A stretch of DNA of 64,000 nucleotides from Acidobacteriota bacterium (lineage in GTDB: Bacteria > Acidobacteriota > Blastocatellia > Pyrinomonadales > Pyrinomonadaceae): contig RFGC01000047.1 of NCBI GenBank assembly GCA_003697135.1, positions 62,001 to 126,000 of the forward strand, written 5' to 3'. The notes under the pieces were generated by a model that saw nothing but the letters and a program-made list of their open reading frames with translations, did no database searches and had not been told where the DNA came from. The translations under genes and the position numbers were made by a program. Shown here in pieces: positions 7,392 to 44,710 of this stretch (position 1 is its first letter; every line of letters begins with the position of its first letter).

Positions 7392-8747
7392 CTAAAACTT
7401 GATTTTGTCTAAGTTAATTCCCAATGCTTTGATTCTGCGGTAGAGATGACTGCGATCAATTCCCATCAATTCAGCCGCTTTTGAAATGTTGCCGTCAGCT
7501 TCAGCTATTTTCTGTTCGATGAATCTTCGTTGAAATGCGTCCATAGCTTCTTTGAAAGACGGAAAGCGTGAAGATGATGAGAGAAAGCCATCTGATTCAA
7601 ACTCTGGCAGATCATCTGCCGTTATCTTTTGCTTTGTTTTCATTATGACTATTCGCTCAACGGTATTTTTTAGTTCTCTAACGTTGCCAGGCCAACTGTA
7701 TTCTTGCATCGCTTGAATTGCGCTCTCGGTAAATTCCTTCGGTTTCTTGCCGTATGCTAGTGAAAATTTGCGATTGAAGTGATCAACAAGGAGCGGTATG
7801 TCTTCGATTCTTTCTCGAAGTGGTGGTATTTGAAACGGAATAACGTTCAGACGGTAAAATAAATCATGTCTGAAACTGCCTGATTCCATCAATTCATCGA
7901 GATTTTTGTTGGTTGCTGAGATTATGCGCACGTCAACTTTAACGAGCGTGTTACTTCCCAGAGGCTCAAATCGAGATTCTTCTAAAACTCTTAAAACTTT
8001 TGCTTGAACGCGCGGCGACATATCGCCTATTTCATCGAGAAAAAGCGTTCCACCATCGGCAAGCTCGAATTTTCCTTTTTTTGTTTGAGTTGCGCCTGAG
8101 AAAGCTCCTTTCACATATCCGAAAAGCTCTGATTCAACTAATTCCTCTGGAATTGCCGCAGAGTTAACTTCGATAAACGCTTTTTCTTTTCGTCTGGATT
8201 GATTATGTATAGCTCTGGCAACCAATTCTTTTCCTGTTCCCGATTCGCCTTGAATTAAAACTCTTCCGTCTGTCGGTGCTACGATTGCTATTTGCTTTCT
8301 CAAAGCGCGCATTGCTACAGAATTGCCTATCATGACGTATTCTTGATTCAAAGCTTCTGCCAGCTCTGCGTTTCTTAGTTCCAGTTCGCGGGTGCGTATG
8401 GCGTTGCGAACGGTTAGGACGGTTTTTTCTATCGAAAGAGGTTTTTCGATGAAATCGAAAGCACCGAGTTTGGTTGCCATCACAGCCGTTTCTATGGTGC
8501 CGTGGCCGGAAATCATGATAACCACAGCATCGCTACCTTGATCGCGAAGGAGTTTTAGAGTTTCAAGCCCATCTATTCCCGGCAACCAGACGTCAAGCAG
8601 TATACAAGCAAAATTGCTTTTTTCGGCTATTTTGAGGCACTCCTCGCCTGAAGCAACCGTTTCCACTTCGTAACCTTCATCTTCGAGGATTGCGCGTAAA
8701 GAGTTTCTTATTCCTGCTTCGTCGTCAACAACTAAAATTTTTTGCAT
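7392..8747 (-). CDS. ntrX: NtrX/NtrC-type sigma54-dependent response regulator
   Basis: About 451 residues from the ATG at 8747. A receiver domain (1-120) has acidic DD at 8-9 and phospho-acceptor Asp52 in ILLDVWLPGIDG. The AAA+ sigma54-activation domain has Walker A GESGTGKE and Walker B TLFLDEIGD. A C-terminal Fis-type helix-turn-helix has NISKAAELMGIDRSHLYRRI. The loop that contacts sigma54 reads GAFSGA rather than GAFTGA, a conservative Thr-to-Ser change. The start lies 4 bp after the stop of the sensor kinase gene. The pair should respond to a membrane or redox/nitrogen-type signal and activate sigma54 promoters; the targets are unknown. Confidence 0.92.
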   Translation of the reverse strand: MQKILVVDDEAGIRNSLRAILEDEGYEVETVASGEECLKIAEKSNFACILLDVWLPGIDGLETLKLLRDQGSDAVVIMISGHGTIETAVMATKLGAFDFIEKPLSIEKTVLTVRNAIRTRELELRNAELAEALNQEYVMIGNSVAMRALRKQIAIVAPTDGRVLIQGESGTGKELVARAIHNQSRRKEKAFIEVNSAAIPEELVESELFGYVKGAFSGATQTKKGKFELADGGTLFLDEIGDMSPRVQAKVLRVLEESRFEPLGSNTLVKVDVRIISATNKNLDELMESGSFRHDLFYRLNVIPFQIPPLRERIEDIPLLVDHFNRKFSLAYGKKPKEFTESAIQAMQEYSWPGNVRELKNTVERIVIMKTKQKITADDLPEFESDGFLSSSSRFPSFKEAMDAFQRRFIEQKIAEADGNISKAAELMGIDRSHLYRRIKALGINLDKIKF

Positions 8748-8751
8748 CGCT

Positions 8752-10881
8752 TCAAGCTTGTAGTTCAATTATAAACCTTGTTCCCTTCGGAAAATTCTTT
8801 GCAACGCGAATTTTTCCGCCGTGTTCCGATACAATCCGATGAACTATCACAAGTCCCAAGCCTGTTCCACGTCCTTTCGTGGAAAAATAGGGCTGAAAAA
8901 GTCTGGGAATGTCCTTCGGCGATATGCCTTTGGCATTGTCTGCAACTTCGATAAAAATCTTGCCTTGTTTTTCATCGAATTCAGTTGTTACGCATACGGT
9001 TTTTTCGCCTTGCTCTCCGTCAAACGCTTCAATGGCGTTTTCTATCAAATTGACCAGAGCTTGTTTCATTTGCTCTTTGTCAATCATGCAATTAGGCAAC
9101 CTTTCATCGAGCGAAGCTTTTATTTCGATAGTTTCCGAGCGATCCTCGTAAAGCGAAATGACTCTTTTGACTACGTCGTTTAGATTGCCATTTTCGAGCT
9201 TAATATCCGGCAGCTTTGCAAACTTGGAGAACTCATCAACCATAGATTTCAGGCTTTTAACTTCGCTCAAGATCGTTTCAGTGCTTTCTTCTATGATCTT
9301 CTTGAGTTGGTTTTGAGAGTCAGATTTTTCGATTTCGGATAGAAATTTTCGCCTGATTCTTTCTGCTGAAAGCTGAATAGGAGTAAGCGGATTTTTTATT
9401 TCGTGAGCCATTCGGCGAGCAACTTCTGACCACGCTGCGGCTCTTTGAGCGGCTAGAAGTTCGGTCAAATCTTCTATGACTAATACTATGCCACCATCAG
9501 GCAAAAGCGTAGCCGTTAGGGCAACTGGATAGATGTTCCTTTCGTTTGTCTCATCTTTTTGTCCGTTCGGATTCTCGGAGTAAATTGTAGTTTGCTCGAA
9601 AGCCTTACCGGCGCGTTTTGCACGTTTTATGATTTTATCGAAAACTTCGAGATTGTCGGCACTTAAAAGCTCAGAAAGTTTCAGTCCTCGGAAATCGCCA
9701 GTTTCTAGTTTCAGGATTTGTCTTGCGGCCTTATTTATTGTGGCGAGCCGATTTTCAGAATCTAAAGAAATCACGCCAGTTGAAAGTGATTCTAAGACGG
9801 TTTCGATGTATCTTCGTCTTTGTTGAAGTTCCTCTGCGTTTGCCTGAAGTTTTGAGGCCATCTGATTGAAGGAATCAACCAATATGGCAAGTTCGTCTTC
9901 TGCAAGGACATTAACTCGGTGAGAAAGATTGCCTTGGGCTATTTCACCGGCTCCTTCTGCCAAAGCTTTTATCGGAACGGTAAGCCCGCGCGCAACGTAG
10001 AATGCAACCCAACTAGAAGCGAAAATGAGAAGAAATGTTAAAAGTCCCAATGTGGAAAGCCCAATTTGCCGAACCATAGTTTGCTGAGCTTTAAGCCTAT
10101 CGAATTCTTTTAGTGCATTTTCGGCTATTTGATTTAGATTCTCGCCTGAATAAGTGCTTGGTATTATCAAAAGTTTCCTGCCATCAGTAAAATTCTCAAC
10201 TATCATCAATTGTCCGTCGGTATTTTGAAAAACGGATTTTGACGATGAAAAATCTGCACCTGCAATTTTGGCGTTTGCTTCTTCTGTGGAATGACTCTGA
10301 GCCAGAATTCTGTTATCTTTCGATAGGCAAACAATTTTCGCCAGATTCATTTTTTGTGCAAGTTCGGTTAGTTTTTCATCGTTTATCTCAGTGTTTTCGA
10401 GAGAATAAACAAGCAGTTGAGCTTTTTCTTTGAGGCTTGCTACTCGATTCTGAAACACCTCTTGCTGAACCTCACGTGCACTGCGGACAACGTTTTCTGG
10501 GATATTCGTAAACCATCGCTCAATGGCTCTGTTCATGAAGAGATATGAGAAAAGTGACATTGCTGTTATTGGCAGAAGGCTTACGGCGAAAAAATAAAAG
10601 AGAAGGCGCGTCTTTATCTTTGAGCCTAATTGCAATGCTTTCCGCTCGCGTAAGAGCTTCAAAAGGTTGCGAACAAAAATAAAAGCAAAGATTACGAAGG
10701 CGATGAAGTTTAGCGATGAAAGAGCATAAAGAATCAATGTGTCGGTGGCAGTTTCAACTATTATTTCTTTCCATAGGTTGGAAGCTTGAAGCAATACTAG
10801 TGTGATAAGCAGAAGAAAGGAAATGATGCCGAGAACCAATAACTTGAGATACTTTTTGCTTTTTGTTTGCTTCCTTTCCAC
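8752..10881 (-). CDS. ntrY: NtrY-like sensor histidine kinase
   Basis: This 709-residue protein has membrane segments near 12-32, 52-74, 92-116 and 273-296, with an extracytoplasmic sensing region (about 117-272) between the third and fourth. HAMP (about 297-350), PAS (about 358-470), a dimerisation helix with His493 in MAHEIKNPLTPIQ, and an ATPase domain follow. The ATPase has NLIENAIEAF, DNAKGISPKDIPRLFQPYFS and GTGLGLVIVHRI. This is the NtrY architecture. It starts at a GTG (10881) and is co-transcribed with ntrX. It would phosphorylate Asp52 of that regulator; the stimulus is not evident. Confidence 0.92.
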   Translation of the reverse strand: MERKQTKSKKYLKLLVLGIISFLLLITLVLLQASNLWKEIIVETATDTLILYALSSLNFIAFVIFAFIFVRNLLKLLRERKALQLGSKIKTRLLFYFFAVSLLPITAMSLFSYLFMNRAIERWFTNIPENVVRSAREVQQEVFQNRVASLKEKAQLLVYSLENTEINDEKLTELAQKMNLAKIVCLSKDNRILAQSHSTEEANAKIAGADFSSSKSVFQNTDGQLMIVENFTDGRKLLIIPSTYSGENLNQIAENALKEFDRLKAQQTMVRQIGLSTLGLLTFLLIFASSWVAFYVARGLTVPIKALAEGAGEIAQGNLSHRVNVLAEDELAILVDSFNQMASKLQANAEELQQRRRYIETVLESLSTGVISLDSENRLATINKAARQILKLETGDFRGLKLSELLSADNLEVFDKIIKRAKRAGKAFEQTTIYSENPNGQKDETNERNIYPVALTATLLPDGGIVLVIEDLTELLAAQRAAAWSEVARRMAHEIKNPLTPIQLSAERIRRKFLSEIEKSDSQNQLKKIIEESTETILSEVKSLKSMVDEFSKFAKLPDIKLENGNLNDVVKRVISLYEDRSETIEIKASLDERLPNCMIDKEQMKQALVNLIENAIEAFDGEQGEKTVCVTTEFDEKQGKIFIEVADNAKGISPKDIPRLFQPYFSTKGRGTGLGLVIVHRIVSEHGGKIRVAKNFPKGTRFIIELQA

Positions 10882-40082: not shown

Positions 40083-40103
40083 GGATTTCGAGACTTGAGA
40101 TAT

Positions 40104-41546
40104 ATGAGAGTATCGAGACGTAGGTTCTTGTCAAGCATTTTAGCACTTCCTTTTGTCGGGCTATTTAAGCCTGCAAGAAGCGTTTTAGTGCTCGGGGCAG
40201 GGCTTTCTGGATTGTCTGTCGCTTATGAACTTGCTTTGAGAGGTTACAAAGTAACTGTGATTGAAGCTCGTGATTATGCAGGCGGTAGAGTCTTCACACT
40301 TCGTAAGCCTTTCTTGAATAATCAGTATGTCGAACTTGGTGGTGAACTCATTGGTGATGGTTACAAACGATTCTTGAAATACGCTAAAGACTTTTCAATC
40401 GAGTTTGAAGAAAATCAAAACCCAGTAGAAACGGGCGGAAGCGTAGCTAATCCTCAAAGAGGCATTACTTCTTCAGCTATTTTGAAGGGAAGGCTTTTTG
40501 CAGTTGGGACAATACTGAATGAAAATCCCTATGGCCTACCTGAAAAAGAAACAATGGATTTGCCGCCTGCAATTTTGTTTAGGCACATAGCAAGTGTCGT
40601 ATCAGAACTTCGCACCAATCCGTCGAAAATTTTCGATTACGATAGGTTGTCTTTAGCAGATTTTCTGAGAAAGCGCGGAGTCTCTGAGCAGATGATAAAG
40701 CTCATGAATATCTCGCTGAATTACAATTCAATTGAGACTGTTTCAATGGGCGGAGTTCTCTGGGATGCAGTGAGAAGAGTTTCTGCAGGAACGAAACCGA
40801 TCCAAATCATTGGTGGTAATGACAGGATAACGAAAGCATTGTTTGAGAATAGTGTGAGACTTGGGGTCAAGTTTATTTTCCAAGCTGAGGTGAAGCGAAT
40901 TTCTCAGAATCCGTCGTCGGTGAGGGTGTCTTTCCTGAAGAACGGTAAAGTCGAAACTGTAGAAGCCGACAAAATCGTTTGCACGATTCCTTTTTCGGTT
41001 CTAAGAGAAATCATTTTTGAGCCGAATTTGCCTGAATCGAAAGCAAAAGCTATAAATGAGCTTGCTTACACGAGGATAACGAAAGTATTTCTGCAAGCAG
41101 AACGTGCCGCTTGGGATGAAAGAAATTTGGGAGCGGCTATTTGGACGGATACACCTTGTGAGAGAATCTTTAATTCGGCTGGTAAAAAGGGCGATAAATT
41201 TGGCATTTTCACGATATGGACTGAAGGCGCAGGAGCGGAAATCCCTGAAAGCATGAATGACAGGGAAAGAATTGTCTGGGGCCAGAGAGAGTTTGTCAAG
41301 GCTTTGCCTTTCATGAAAGGCCGAATCCAAAGGAGAGCCACCAAGTCTTGGACGCTTGATAAGTATGCGCGTGGAGCTTATGCTCATTTTAAGGTTGGAC
41401 AGCTTGCAAGTCTTCAGCCTTTTTTGAAAACACCTGTTGGCAGGATTCACTTTGCAGGAGAACACACAGCCGAAAAAATGCCGGGAATGGAGGGCGCTTT
41501 GGAATCGGCAGAAAGAGTAGTTGCAGAGATTGATTCTGGAGGTTAA
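40104..41546 (+). CDS. FAD-dependent amine oxidase (flavin monoamine oxidase family)
   Basis: About 480 residues from ATG 40104. A Tat-like leader (SRRRFLSSILALPFVGLF) precedes the dinucleotide-binding motif VLVLGAGLSGLSVAYELALRGYKVTVIEAR, so the enzyme may be folded with FAD and exported. GGRVFTLR and the C-terminal IHFAGEHTAEKMPGMEGALESAERVV complete the flavin site. Family members oxidise primary or secondary amines to aldehydes or imines, giving H2O2 and ammonia; the substrate is unknown. It follows the receptor terminator by about 20 bp. The copper-amine-oxidase-like gene 1.4 kb downstream may belong to the same theme. Confidence 0.88.
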   Translation: MRVSRRRFLSSILALPFVGLFKPARSVLVLGAGLSGLSVAYELALRGYKVTVIEARDYAGGRVFTLRKPFLNNQYVELGGELIGDGYKRFLKYAKDFSIEFEENQNPVETGGSVANPQRGITSSAILKGRLFAVGTILNENPYGLPEKETMDLPPAILFRHIASVVSELRTNPSKIFDYDRLSLADFLRKRGVSEQMIKLMNISLNYNSIETVSMGGVLWDAVRRVSAGTKPIQIIGGNDRITKALFENSVRLGVKFIFQAEVKRISQNPSSVRVSFLKNGKVETVEADKIVCTIPFSVLREIIFEPNLPESKAKAINELAYTRITKVFLQAERAAWDERNLGAAIWTDTPCERIFNSAGKKGDKFGIFTIWTEGAGAEIPESMNDRERIVWGQREFVKALPFMKGRIQRRATKSWTLDKYARGAYAHFKVGQLASLQPFLKTPVGRIHFAGEHTAEKMPGMEGALESAERVVAEIDSGG

Positions 41547-42928: not shown

Positions 42929-42976
42929 ATTGATATAAACACTCGGTTTTTATTCAAACAATTGAGGAGGTGAAAA

Positions 42977-44710
42977 ATGAAAGCGGGCGAGAAACTGTTG
43001 CTCGTTGCAGTGGTAGTTGTTTTTTCCATTGCAACTGTGTTGGCTGGGGAAGAAACCAGCAAAGAGCATAAATCGAGGAAACAAGATTCGCTTGAAATAA
43101 AAGTCGTGCCTTGGGGGCCGACGCAGGCTGATGTTGAAGTGGCAAAGGCACGCGTATTGCGAGATTCTTCATTGCAGAATGAACTTCGCGGCGTGAAGTA
43201 TCGCCTAATGGCTTTTGAGTTTTTGGAAAATAGCGACACCGATAAATCGAAACCAACGATGCCACCGAGCCGTTTCAGGGTCATTTTTTATGACTACACA
43301 AACGATCAAGTAGTAGTGGCTGAAGGCGACTTCAAAGGTAAAGAAACTATAAAGGTTTATCGAGATTCGTTCGAGGTTGGGACTAACGAAGACGAATTAA
43401 ATGCTGCATTTGATATTGTGAGCAAATCGCCTGAGTTCGCATCTGCCGCAGGCCAACTGGAATTTTACGAACCGATGCCTCCGACAACATACATAAACGG
43501 AGAAAGGCTTGTTAACGTTGGGGTTCGGAATTTAAGAACAGGCGAAAACGAAATTGTAAGTGTTAGTTTCAAAAACGACAAAGTAGTTCGTTATCAAGAA
43601 AAAGCTCCGCCTACCTCGAAAGCTGGGCCTGAAGGTTGCGGAATTTCCAGCGCAGGACAAGGAAGCACTGGTAGAGGTCTTGCCGGACAATACCAGCTAA
43701 CCGTAAACGACCAAAACGGCTCGCCTCTTTGGGAAATGCTTATAATCAGACCTTCATCTTCTTCAGGAGCCGGCAGTGAAGGTTCAGGAATTGAAATCAG
43801 AAACGTAAAATACAAAGGCAAAATGGTTCTCAAGCGTGGACATGCGCCAATCTTGAACGTTCAATATGTCAACAATGCTTGTGGTCCTTTCAGAGATTGG
43901 CAATATGCTGAAGGATATTTTCAGATTCCTAATTCGGGTGTTAATTTCCCAAACGGTCCTGATGGCGGTATAGCGATTCTCCCTCCAGGGACGATAGCTA
44001 CGACTGCCGTAGAGACAAGAAATGATTTAGGTAATTTCAGAGGTGTGGCTATCTACAGGCAAGATGTAGGCTACGGCGAAGAAGTTGTTCTGGTGACAGA
44101 GATGAATGCAGGTTGGTATCGCTACATAATGGAGTGGAGATTTGCTCCTAACGGAACAATACGCCCGCGTTATGGTTTTGCATCGGTTACTAATAGTTGT
44201 GTTTGCAGACCGAGAACACACCACGTATATTGGCGCTTTGACTTCGATATAGTTCAACCGAATAACAAAATCTTTCAAGTCGAGCGTGGTAGAAAATTCA
44301 TGAAGCAGATTTTGACGGAAGCAGCTATTTTCCGTCAATACCAGCTAAATCGTAGCTTCTTGATTCAAAATGCTAACGGTGACGAAGCTTACATAATCAC
44401 ACCCGGCTTGAATGATGGTAGCGTTGCCGATAGATTCGGAAACTTGACTGATACCTTCGGAGCAGGTGATTTTTGGTTATTGAGATTCAAAGGCACTGCC
44501 GATAGTCCGTTTGAACTTGACGATCCGAATACAAGTGCAGCAGCGAATCTAGCGCCTTGGGTTGATGGTGAGTCTTTGGATAATCAGGACATAGTTGTTT
44601 GGTATGGAGCGCATCAATATAGAGTTGATGATACAAGCTTCAGTGAGCGCTCAAACGTAATTTCAGGGGTTCACGTTATAGGGCCAACGATAAGGCCGGT
44701 GCGCTGGTAA
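42977..44710 (+). CDS. Exported copper-amine-oxidase-like protein with altered cofactor motif
   Basis: This 577-residue protein has a signal peptide (about 1-23). Residues 270-577 follow the copper amine oxidase catalytic domain: IEIRNVKYKGKMVLKRGHAP, then VLVTEMNAGWYRYIMEWRFAPNGTI, RTHHVYWRFDFDI and DIVVWYGAHQY, ending GPTIRPVRW. In true enzymes the topaquinone Tyr sits in an NY(D/E) motif; here it reads W-Tyr381-R. Two of three copper His may be His415/416, adjacent rather than HxH, with His546 near the end. It may keep a related redox role or have lost catalysis. Residues 40-210 are unlike the N2/N3 domains I know. GAGGAGG precedes the ATG. Confidence 0.7.
   Translation: MKAGEKLLLVAVVVVFSIATVLAGEETSKEHKSRKQDSLEIKVVPWGPTQADVEVAKARVLRDSSLQNELRGVKYRLMAFEFLENSDTDKSKPTMPPSRFRVIFYDYTNDQVVVAEGDFKGKETIKVYRDSFEVGTNEDELNAAFDIVSKSPEFASAAGQLEFYEPMPPTTYINGERLVNVGVRNLRTGENEIVSVSFKNDKVVRYQEKAPPTSKAGPEGCGISSAGQGSTGRGLAGQYQLTVNDQNGSPLWEMLIIRPSSSSGAGSEGSGIEIRNVKYKGKMVLKRGHAPILNVQYVNNACGPFRDWQYAEGYFQIPNSGVNFPNGPDGGIAILPPGTIATTAVETRNDLGNFRGVAIYRQDVGYGEEVVLVTEMNAGWYRYIMEWRFAPNGTIRPRYGFASVTNSCVCRPRTHHVYWRFDFDIVQPNNKIFQVERGRKFMKQILTEAAIFRQYQLNRSFLIQNANGDEAYIITPGLNDGSVADRFGNLTDTFGAGDFWLLRFKGTADSPFELDDPNTSAAANLAPWVDGESLDNQDIVVWYGAHQYRVDDTSFSERSNVISGVHVIGPTIRPVRW

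Follow-up and report, generated by a model that had tools for sequence, protein, structure and literature searches.

A probable exported pseudoenzyme with a copper amine oxidase fold and arginine at two copper-ligand positions in Acidobacteriota

A 64,000-nucleotide stretch of an Acidobacteriota genome (contig RFGC01000047.1, positions 62,001 to 126,000; hereafter 'the window') encodes on its forward strand, at 42977-44710, an intact protein of 577 amino acids with a predicted copper amine oxidase (CAO) fold, in which both outer copper-binding histidines are replaced by arginine; it is therefore probably a maintained, exported non-oxidase. Our preferred explanation, which we consider rather likely, is a CAO-fold pseudoenzyme that is exported and lost its copper site through selection. 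A non-redox function outside the cytoplasm is what its preserved fold, its fixed arginine pair and the purifying selection seen in its clade suggest. The novelty is a bacterial clade with two fixed arginines at copper-ligand positions, within a CAO-like family of which we found no description among the papers listed in searches for bacterial CAO-like or pseudo-CAO families, where few subscription journals were covered; the family appears to be uncharacterised.

The ATG of the ORF is preceded by a Shine-Dalgarno-like GAGGAGGTG (42964-42972), and the hydrophobic N-terminus (residues 1-23, MKAGEKLLLVAVVVVFSIATVLA; 42977-43045), modelled as a helix over residues 4-21, is a probable signal peptide; both were read from the sequence. 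A D2/D3-like N-terminal half follows (approximately residues 40-215; 43094-43621), delimited by VIA alignments starting at model residues 37-48 and by the profile alignment, and then a D4-like (catalytic-domain) half (approximately residues 236-577; 43682-44707), delimited by profile, structural and hhalign alignments. The landmarks PNGTI, FDFDI, VVWYGAH and GPTIRPVRW named in the initial annotation are all found in the protein.

The weak Pfam score masks what the model indicates to be a full-length relationship to CAOs. The Cu_amine_oxid profile (PF01179) scored 29.5 bits, above its cut-off of 27, with a best stretch covering residues 507-544 only, and was found at E ≤ 0.01 in 68 of 70 aligned family members. 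An NCBIfam search of the protein gave no match, and a six-frame Pfam search of its own genome did not report the gene. With the single sequence, phmmer found no CAO in the PDB; its best match, a retroviral-like protease (E 3e-4), is probably spurious, since the family profile placed CAO chains on top (E 3.6e-15; a single unrelated chain scored E 0.34) and the best 50 of 98 Foldseek matches in the PDB (E ≤ 0.001; top E 1.1e-21) were all CAOs. The AlphaFold2 model used for Foldseek was built from the 70-row family alignment and reached pLDDT 90.0 and pTM 0.89. Among the matches listed, Foldseek superpositions were loose, with TM scores of 0.5-0.6 for the query and rmsd values of 9-14 Å, which leaves room for a different arrangement of the domains. 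The VIA structural alignment laid residues 46-577 on residues 97-713 of E. coli CAO (Z 26.6, 3.5 Å, 425 residues); the D2-D3-D4 part therefore appears complete in the model, and the E. coli D1 stalk is absent. The fold check proposed in the initial annotation thus returned a CAO (pLDDT 90; Foldseek and VIA) and no unrelated fold.

According to PMC3382800, CAOs themselves make topaquinone (TPQ) from a precursor tyrosine within the consensus T-x-x-N-Y-D/E once three strictly conserved histidines have coordinated copper, and replacement of the Asn before this tyrosine by Ala (N404A in HPAO-1) leaves TPQ at only 5-10%. In the window protein, Tyr381 (AGWYRY; G379-W-Y-R-Y383 at 44111-44125) aligns with the TPQ tyrosine of GNYDY, both in the profile alignment with PDB chains and in hhalign against 27 CAOs that were taken from Acidobacteriota genomes as stop-to-stop frames (probability 99.6 over 506 columns). 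The two alignments agree with the initial placing of the cofactor tyrosine in GWYRY and, as far as an alignment can tell, put Tyr381 on the TPQ position, which had been suggested as a point to check. The surrounding residues, N-A-G-W-Y-R, depart from the TPQ consensus, with Trp and Arg in place of its Asn and Asp/Glu; this deviation is real but not peculiar to the protein, as W380 occurs in 86 of 103 family rows and Tyr381 in all of them.

At the copper-ligand positions we find Arg413 (AGA, 44213-44215) for the first histidine, His415, which is kept, for the second, and Arg549 (AGA, the last residue of H546-Q547-Y548-R549 at 44612-44623) for the third, so that the three-histidine site is not present. 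Arg549 lies six residues past the WY of VVWY, and this third position had been overlooked. The adjacent His pair, formerly read as standing in place of HxH, was misregistered: the actual arrangement is R413-T-H415-H416 and the family motif is H-x-H-H, so that the register of the alignment rules out an adjacent-histidine metal site and HH comprises the second copper histidine and an extra one, His416 (44219-44224; 103/103 and 102/103 rows, respectively). With arginine at two of the three ligand positions, the earlier suggestion of metal binding loses ground; its companion, a different cofactor, gained no support here, and the view that TPQ is unlikely to form is well supported. The CAO base Asp aligns (hhalign) on Ala311, which Asp307 precedes by four residues and Glu312 immediately follows; no conserved acid occupies the aligned position, and the nearly invariant Asp307 (43895-43897; 102/103 rows) is a candidate counterpart. 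Tyr297 (43865-43867; Tyr in 102/103 family rows and 5/5 CAO rows) stands where CAOs carry a conserved active-site tyrosine. Asp422-x-Asp424 (44240-44248; 9/9 two-arginine rows) and Asp538 (44588-44590; 9/9 and 73/94 other rows) are probable counterparts of the acidic residues of what is presumably the CAO calcium site.

The protein belongs, as judged by alignment and tree, to a bacterial CAO-like family, marked by AGWYRY and HxHH, apart from the CAOs sampled. In a tree of the D4 half (42 rows), 30 CAO-like rows were split from ten CAOs and two NYNY proteins by a branch with support 100/99. Genome searches gave matches for 13 of 396 genomes drawn from the phylum, 34 of 162 from the class and 27 of 119 from the taxonomic family, in three sets that share members. 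Some few of the weakest matches belong to true CAOs or NYNY proteins; the 27 contain one of each. From GTDB contigs, 107 loci were confirmed and 80 kept, spanning Acidobacteriota, Bacillota, Actinomycetota, Bacteroidota, Pseudomonadota, Nitrospirota and others. A first alignment had 98 rows (L002, L003, L015, L071 and the second L049 piece excluded) and a second 111, with contained duplicates and new frames shorter than 300 amino acids removed; setting aside five CAOs, L014, L102 and L108 left the 103 family rows used for all counts. Residues 413/549 are H/H in 73 rows, which thus keep all three ligand histidines, H/D in 16, R/R in nine, H/I in two, H/gap in two and H/R in one. Outside the R/R rows His413 is universal (94/94); the R/R clade has R-x-H-H instead of H-x-H-H.

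The nine R/R rows and the single H/R row (L018, equal to L120) form one clade with support 100/99 in a 38-row tree. L018, nested within it, is the exception in combining His413 with Arg549, and because a 20-N gap in the assembly lies two bases ahead of its codon 413, this histidine may be either a true reversal or an assembly effect. For comparison we took 12 near three-histidine relatives, chosen by similarity before the tree was inspected, of which 11 count at column 549, L130 lacking its C-terminus. Of 142 columns invariant in these relatives, only three are fixed otherwise in the nine R/R rows (H413R, Y504F and H549R); that two of the three are copper ligands has a hypergeometric probability of 9e-4, in a post hoc test that treats columns as exchangeable, and a looser test gave five positions (403, 413, 504, 547 and 549). 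All six arginine codons are used across the arginine positions, so it is the residue that is being kept, and reading frames are free of internal stops in all nine rows. Asp551 co-occurs with the arginine pair, as mostly does Asp552, and His415, His416, His546, Tyr381, Tyr297, Asp307, Glu448 and Asp498 are kept throughout. The match of residues 46-577 in the structural alignment, together with both arginines in 9/9 rows with varied codons, is beyond chance. Two close R/R pairs are under purifying selection, with dN/dS of 0.048 (L019/L022) and 0.064 (L004/L118), against 0.152 in one close three-histidine pair as a control; the other unsaturated R/R pairs, with dS > 1.4, gave 0.12-0.27, and dS was saturated in all eight pairs containing the window protein. 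On these alignments, change appears focused on the copper site rather than being part of a general decay.

As two ligands and the Asn before the tyrosine are gone, copper binding, TPQ formation and amine oxidation are improbable. In the pseudoenzyme that we favour, type-2 copper would not be held without the three-histidine site, Tyr381 would stay an unmodified tyrosine and amine oxidation would be absent. Arg413 and Arg549 would fill the metal cavity, presumably held by salt bridges or hydrogen bonds to the co-occurring Asp551 and Asp552; the side-chain positions of both arginines and of Tyr381 are deduced from the alignment. Outside the cytoplasm, the former substrate pocket or the surface would now serve to bind some partner or ligand, which may be anionic. 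Against this reading stands the persistence of Tyr381 and His415 (both 103/103 rows) and of Tyr297 and Asp307 (both 102/103), for which a protein made only for binding has no obvious need. We tentatively entertain a wider proposal, in which the AGWYRY/HxHH family is an undescribed CAO-fold lineage with its own copper-tyrosine chemistry or cofactor, marked by a Trp beside the precursor tyrosine, an extra histidine pair, probably on the other face, and an Asp at the third ligand in one branch. In the R/R clade, selection would then have turned this site into one with two arginines and no metal, serving a new function in binding or catalysis.

That the protein is a metalloprotein of another kind, its metal bound by His415 together with other residues or by a His416/His546 pair, seems unlikely to us. 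All three histidines are kept in 9/9 R/R rows, and His416 and His546 occur together in 76 of 103 family rows, but His546 is missing elsewhere and 27 rows lack at least one of the two. Moreover, the model predicts a strand at residues 413-423, and because the neighbours 415 and 416 should face opposite sides of it, His416 and His546 are probably directed away from the old copper cavity. A different, metal-free catalysis employing Tyr381, Asp307 and the two arginines, which we regard as quite improbable, would account for the retention of Tyr381, Tyr297, Asp307, Glu448 and Asp498 next to the replacement arginines in every R/R row; yet several of these residues may be structural, and neither 16 related regions nor the 80 loci revealed a conserved gene partner or pathway. 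It is very unlikely that the gene is decaying toward loss: its stop-free frames, the same two arginines with varied codons in 9/9 rows and a dN/dS of 0.05-0.06 in two close pairs speak for maintenance, against the patchy occurrence of the family (the 27 of 119 genomes given above) and the fate of the true CAO of the same genome, reduced to a C-terminal scrap with an in-frame TAG. Least of all do we expect a working TPQ CAO with an unusual motif. The fold, a tyrosine at the TPQ position and the conserved Tyr297 would suit one, but arginine replaces two copper histidines, the motif has Trp and Arg where Asn and Asp/Glu belong, and the aligned base position lacks a conserved acid.

Compared with TPQ CAOs such as E. 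coli TynA and Arthrobacter globiformis phenylethylamine oxidase (PF01179), the protein shares the D2-D3-D4 fold over residues 46-577, the position of the precursor tyrosine, the second copper histidine, the active-site tyrosine and the probable calcium-site Asp residues. It differs in having W-Y-R instead of N-Y-D/E, arginine at the first and third copper histidines, no conserved acid aligned with the base Asp, and a length of 577 amino acids against at least 639 in the 27 stop-to-stop CAO frames. Three-histidine members of its own family (Peribacillus L036, Acidobacteriota L020/L113 and Nonomuraea L056) resemble it in AGWYRY, HxHH-x-YWRFDFD, Asp307 and the single chain of two halves, but keep His413 and His549 and could therefore bind copper. 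Rodent Svs1 and Doxl1/2, derived from diamine oxidase, lack the TPQ tyrosine or at least one copper histidine and are presumed inactive, as described in PMC7556508, and Arabidopsis AtCuAO-epsilon-1 and -2 are given in PMC12058724 as CuAO genes without essential active residues; a CAO pseudoenzyme is therefore an already known kind of protein. Set against these descriptions only, Svs1 and Doxl are likewise CAO homologues missing the tyrosine or copper histidines, two of the latter in our case, and are young Aoc1 duplicates of myomorph rodents, whereas the protein here is bacterial, keeps the tyrosine and has an arginine pair fixed across a clade. A PF01179 match by itself does not mean an amine oxidase. 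Close relatives that differ, among otherwise invariant columns, almost only at the copper ligands constitute a natural experiment on a copper-free CAO scaffold, and the three-histidine and two-arginine relatives offer a ready pair for asking whether the W-Y-R family makes topaquinone.

The ORF list contains the FAD amine oxidase reported earlier (40095-41546), ending 1.4 kb upstream of the CAO-fold gene. It starts with a twin-arginine-like SRRRFLSS, the reading of which suggests export. A link between the two genes did not hold up: relatives of the FAD amine oxidase or of the upstream TonB receptor were absent above the clustering threshold from 16 related regions of 4 to 19.5 kb, among them that of the sister genome, and from the frames of at least 90 amino acids in 80 loci (flanks of up to 8 kb, often shorter). 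A functional association with either gene was rejected, as neither is conserved even in the sister genome. In the window's genus the CAO-fold gene is located elsewhere than in other relatives, behind PilZ and enoyl-CoA hydratase genes that recur ahead of it only in the sister genome. An apparent neighbour cluster in 44 of 80 loci proved spurious, as it consisted mostly of shadow frames antisense to the CAO-like gene itself.

Several relatives carry the family gene near what we take, from their sequences, to be an Hsp33-like gene and a ribonucleotide-reductase-like gene. Among R/R members, L169 and L171 have both neighbours, L172 and L173 the Hsp33-like one and L170 neither; the H/R member L174 has the ribonucleotide-reductase-like one. 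Among three-histidine members, L023 and L029 have both, L020 the ribonucleotide-reductase-like, L177 the Hsp33-like and L175 neither. This shared neighbourhood suggests that the ligands were lost in the same gene and not in a new copy; against proof of this stand L170 and L175, with neither neighbour, and the genomes G399 and G428, which carry two family copies. The only six-frame match to PF01179 in the window's own genome is the CAO scrap mentioned above, located at L001:1501-1647 (G000:C12:216807-216953), and no intact CAO was reported by the six-frame search there or in the sister genome G204.

Other branches of the family show further variation. In 16 rows (L073-L079 and L070; e.g., L075:7791-9047) the H-x-H-H motif is kept and the third copper-ligand position is Asp, which makes a two-His-one-Asp site possible. 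In short CAO-like branches the N-terminal half appears to be encoded by a gene of its own, placed immediately before the D4 gene, as in L084 (7237-7914 and 7914-8750). A related upstream frame was found in 17/17 loci of L080-L096, in L088 as one open frame with D4, and in 11/11 loci of L068-L070 and L072-L079; with the N-terminal half of the window protein, these frames share clear homology in L084 and L093 and weak homology in L070, L090 and L075. The split pair of L084 adjoins an ATP-grasp-like gene (L084:9786-10778), named by inspection and with no Pfam match, frames related to which occur in only two of the 80 loci; the N-terminal-half gene of L084 might be a large precursor. The short NYNY and HMH proteins L014:880-2187 (reverse strand) and L102:880-2034 group with CAOs and not with the AGWYRY/HxHH family. 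Phage records gave no match; on plasmids we found two Variovorax copies annotated as hypothetical proteins and a third, unannotated match. L073, L074, L075, L076 and L079 have two family genes each, and a protein with five CxxCH motifs is encoded near the family gene in L075 and L070. Brevibacillus dissolubilis carries two tandem three-histidine copies (L038:6025-7701 and 7932-9668).
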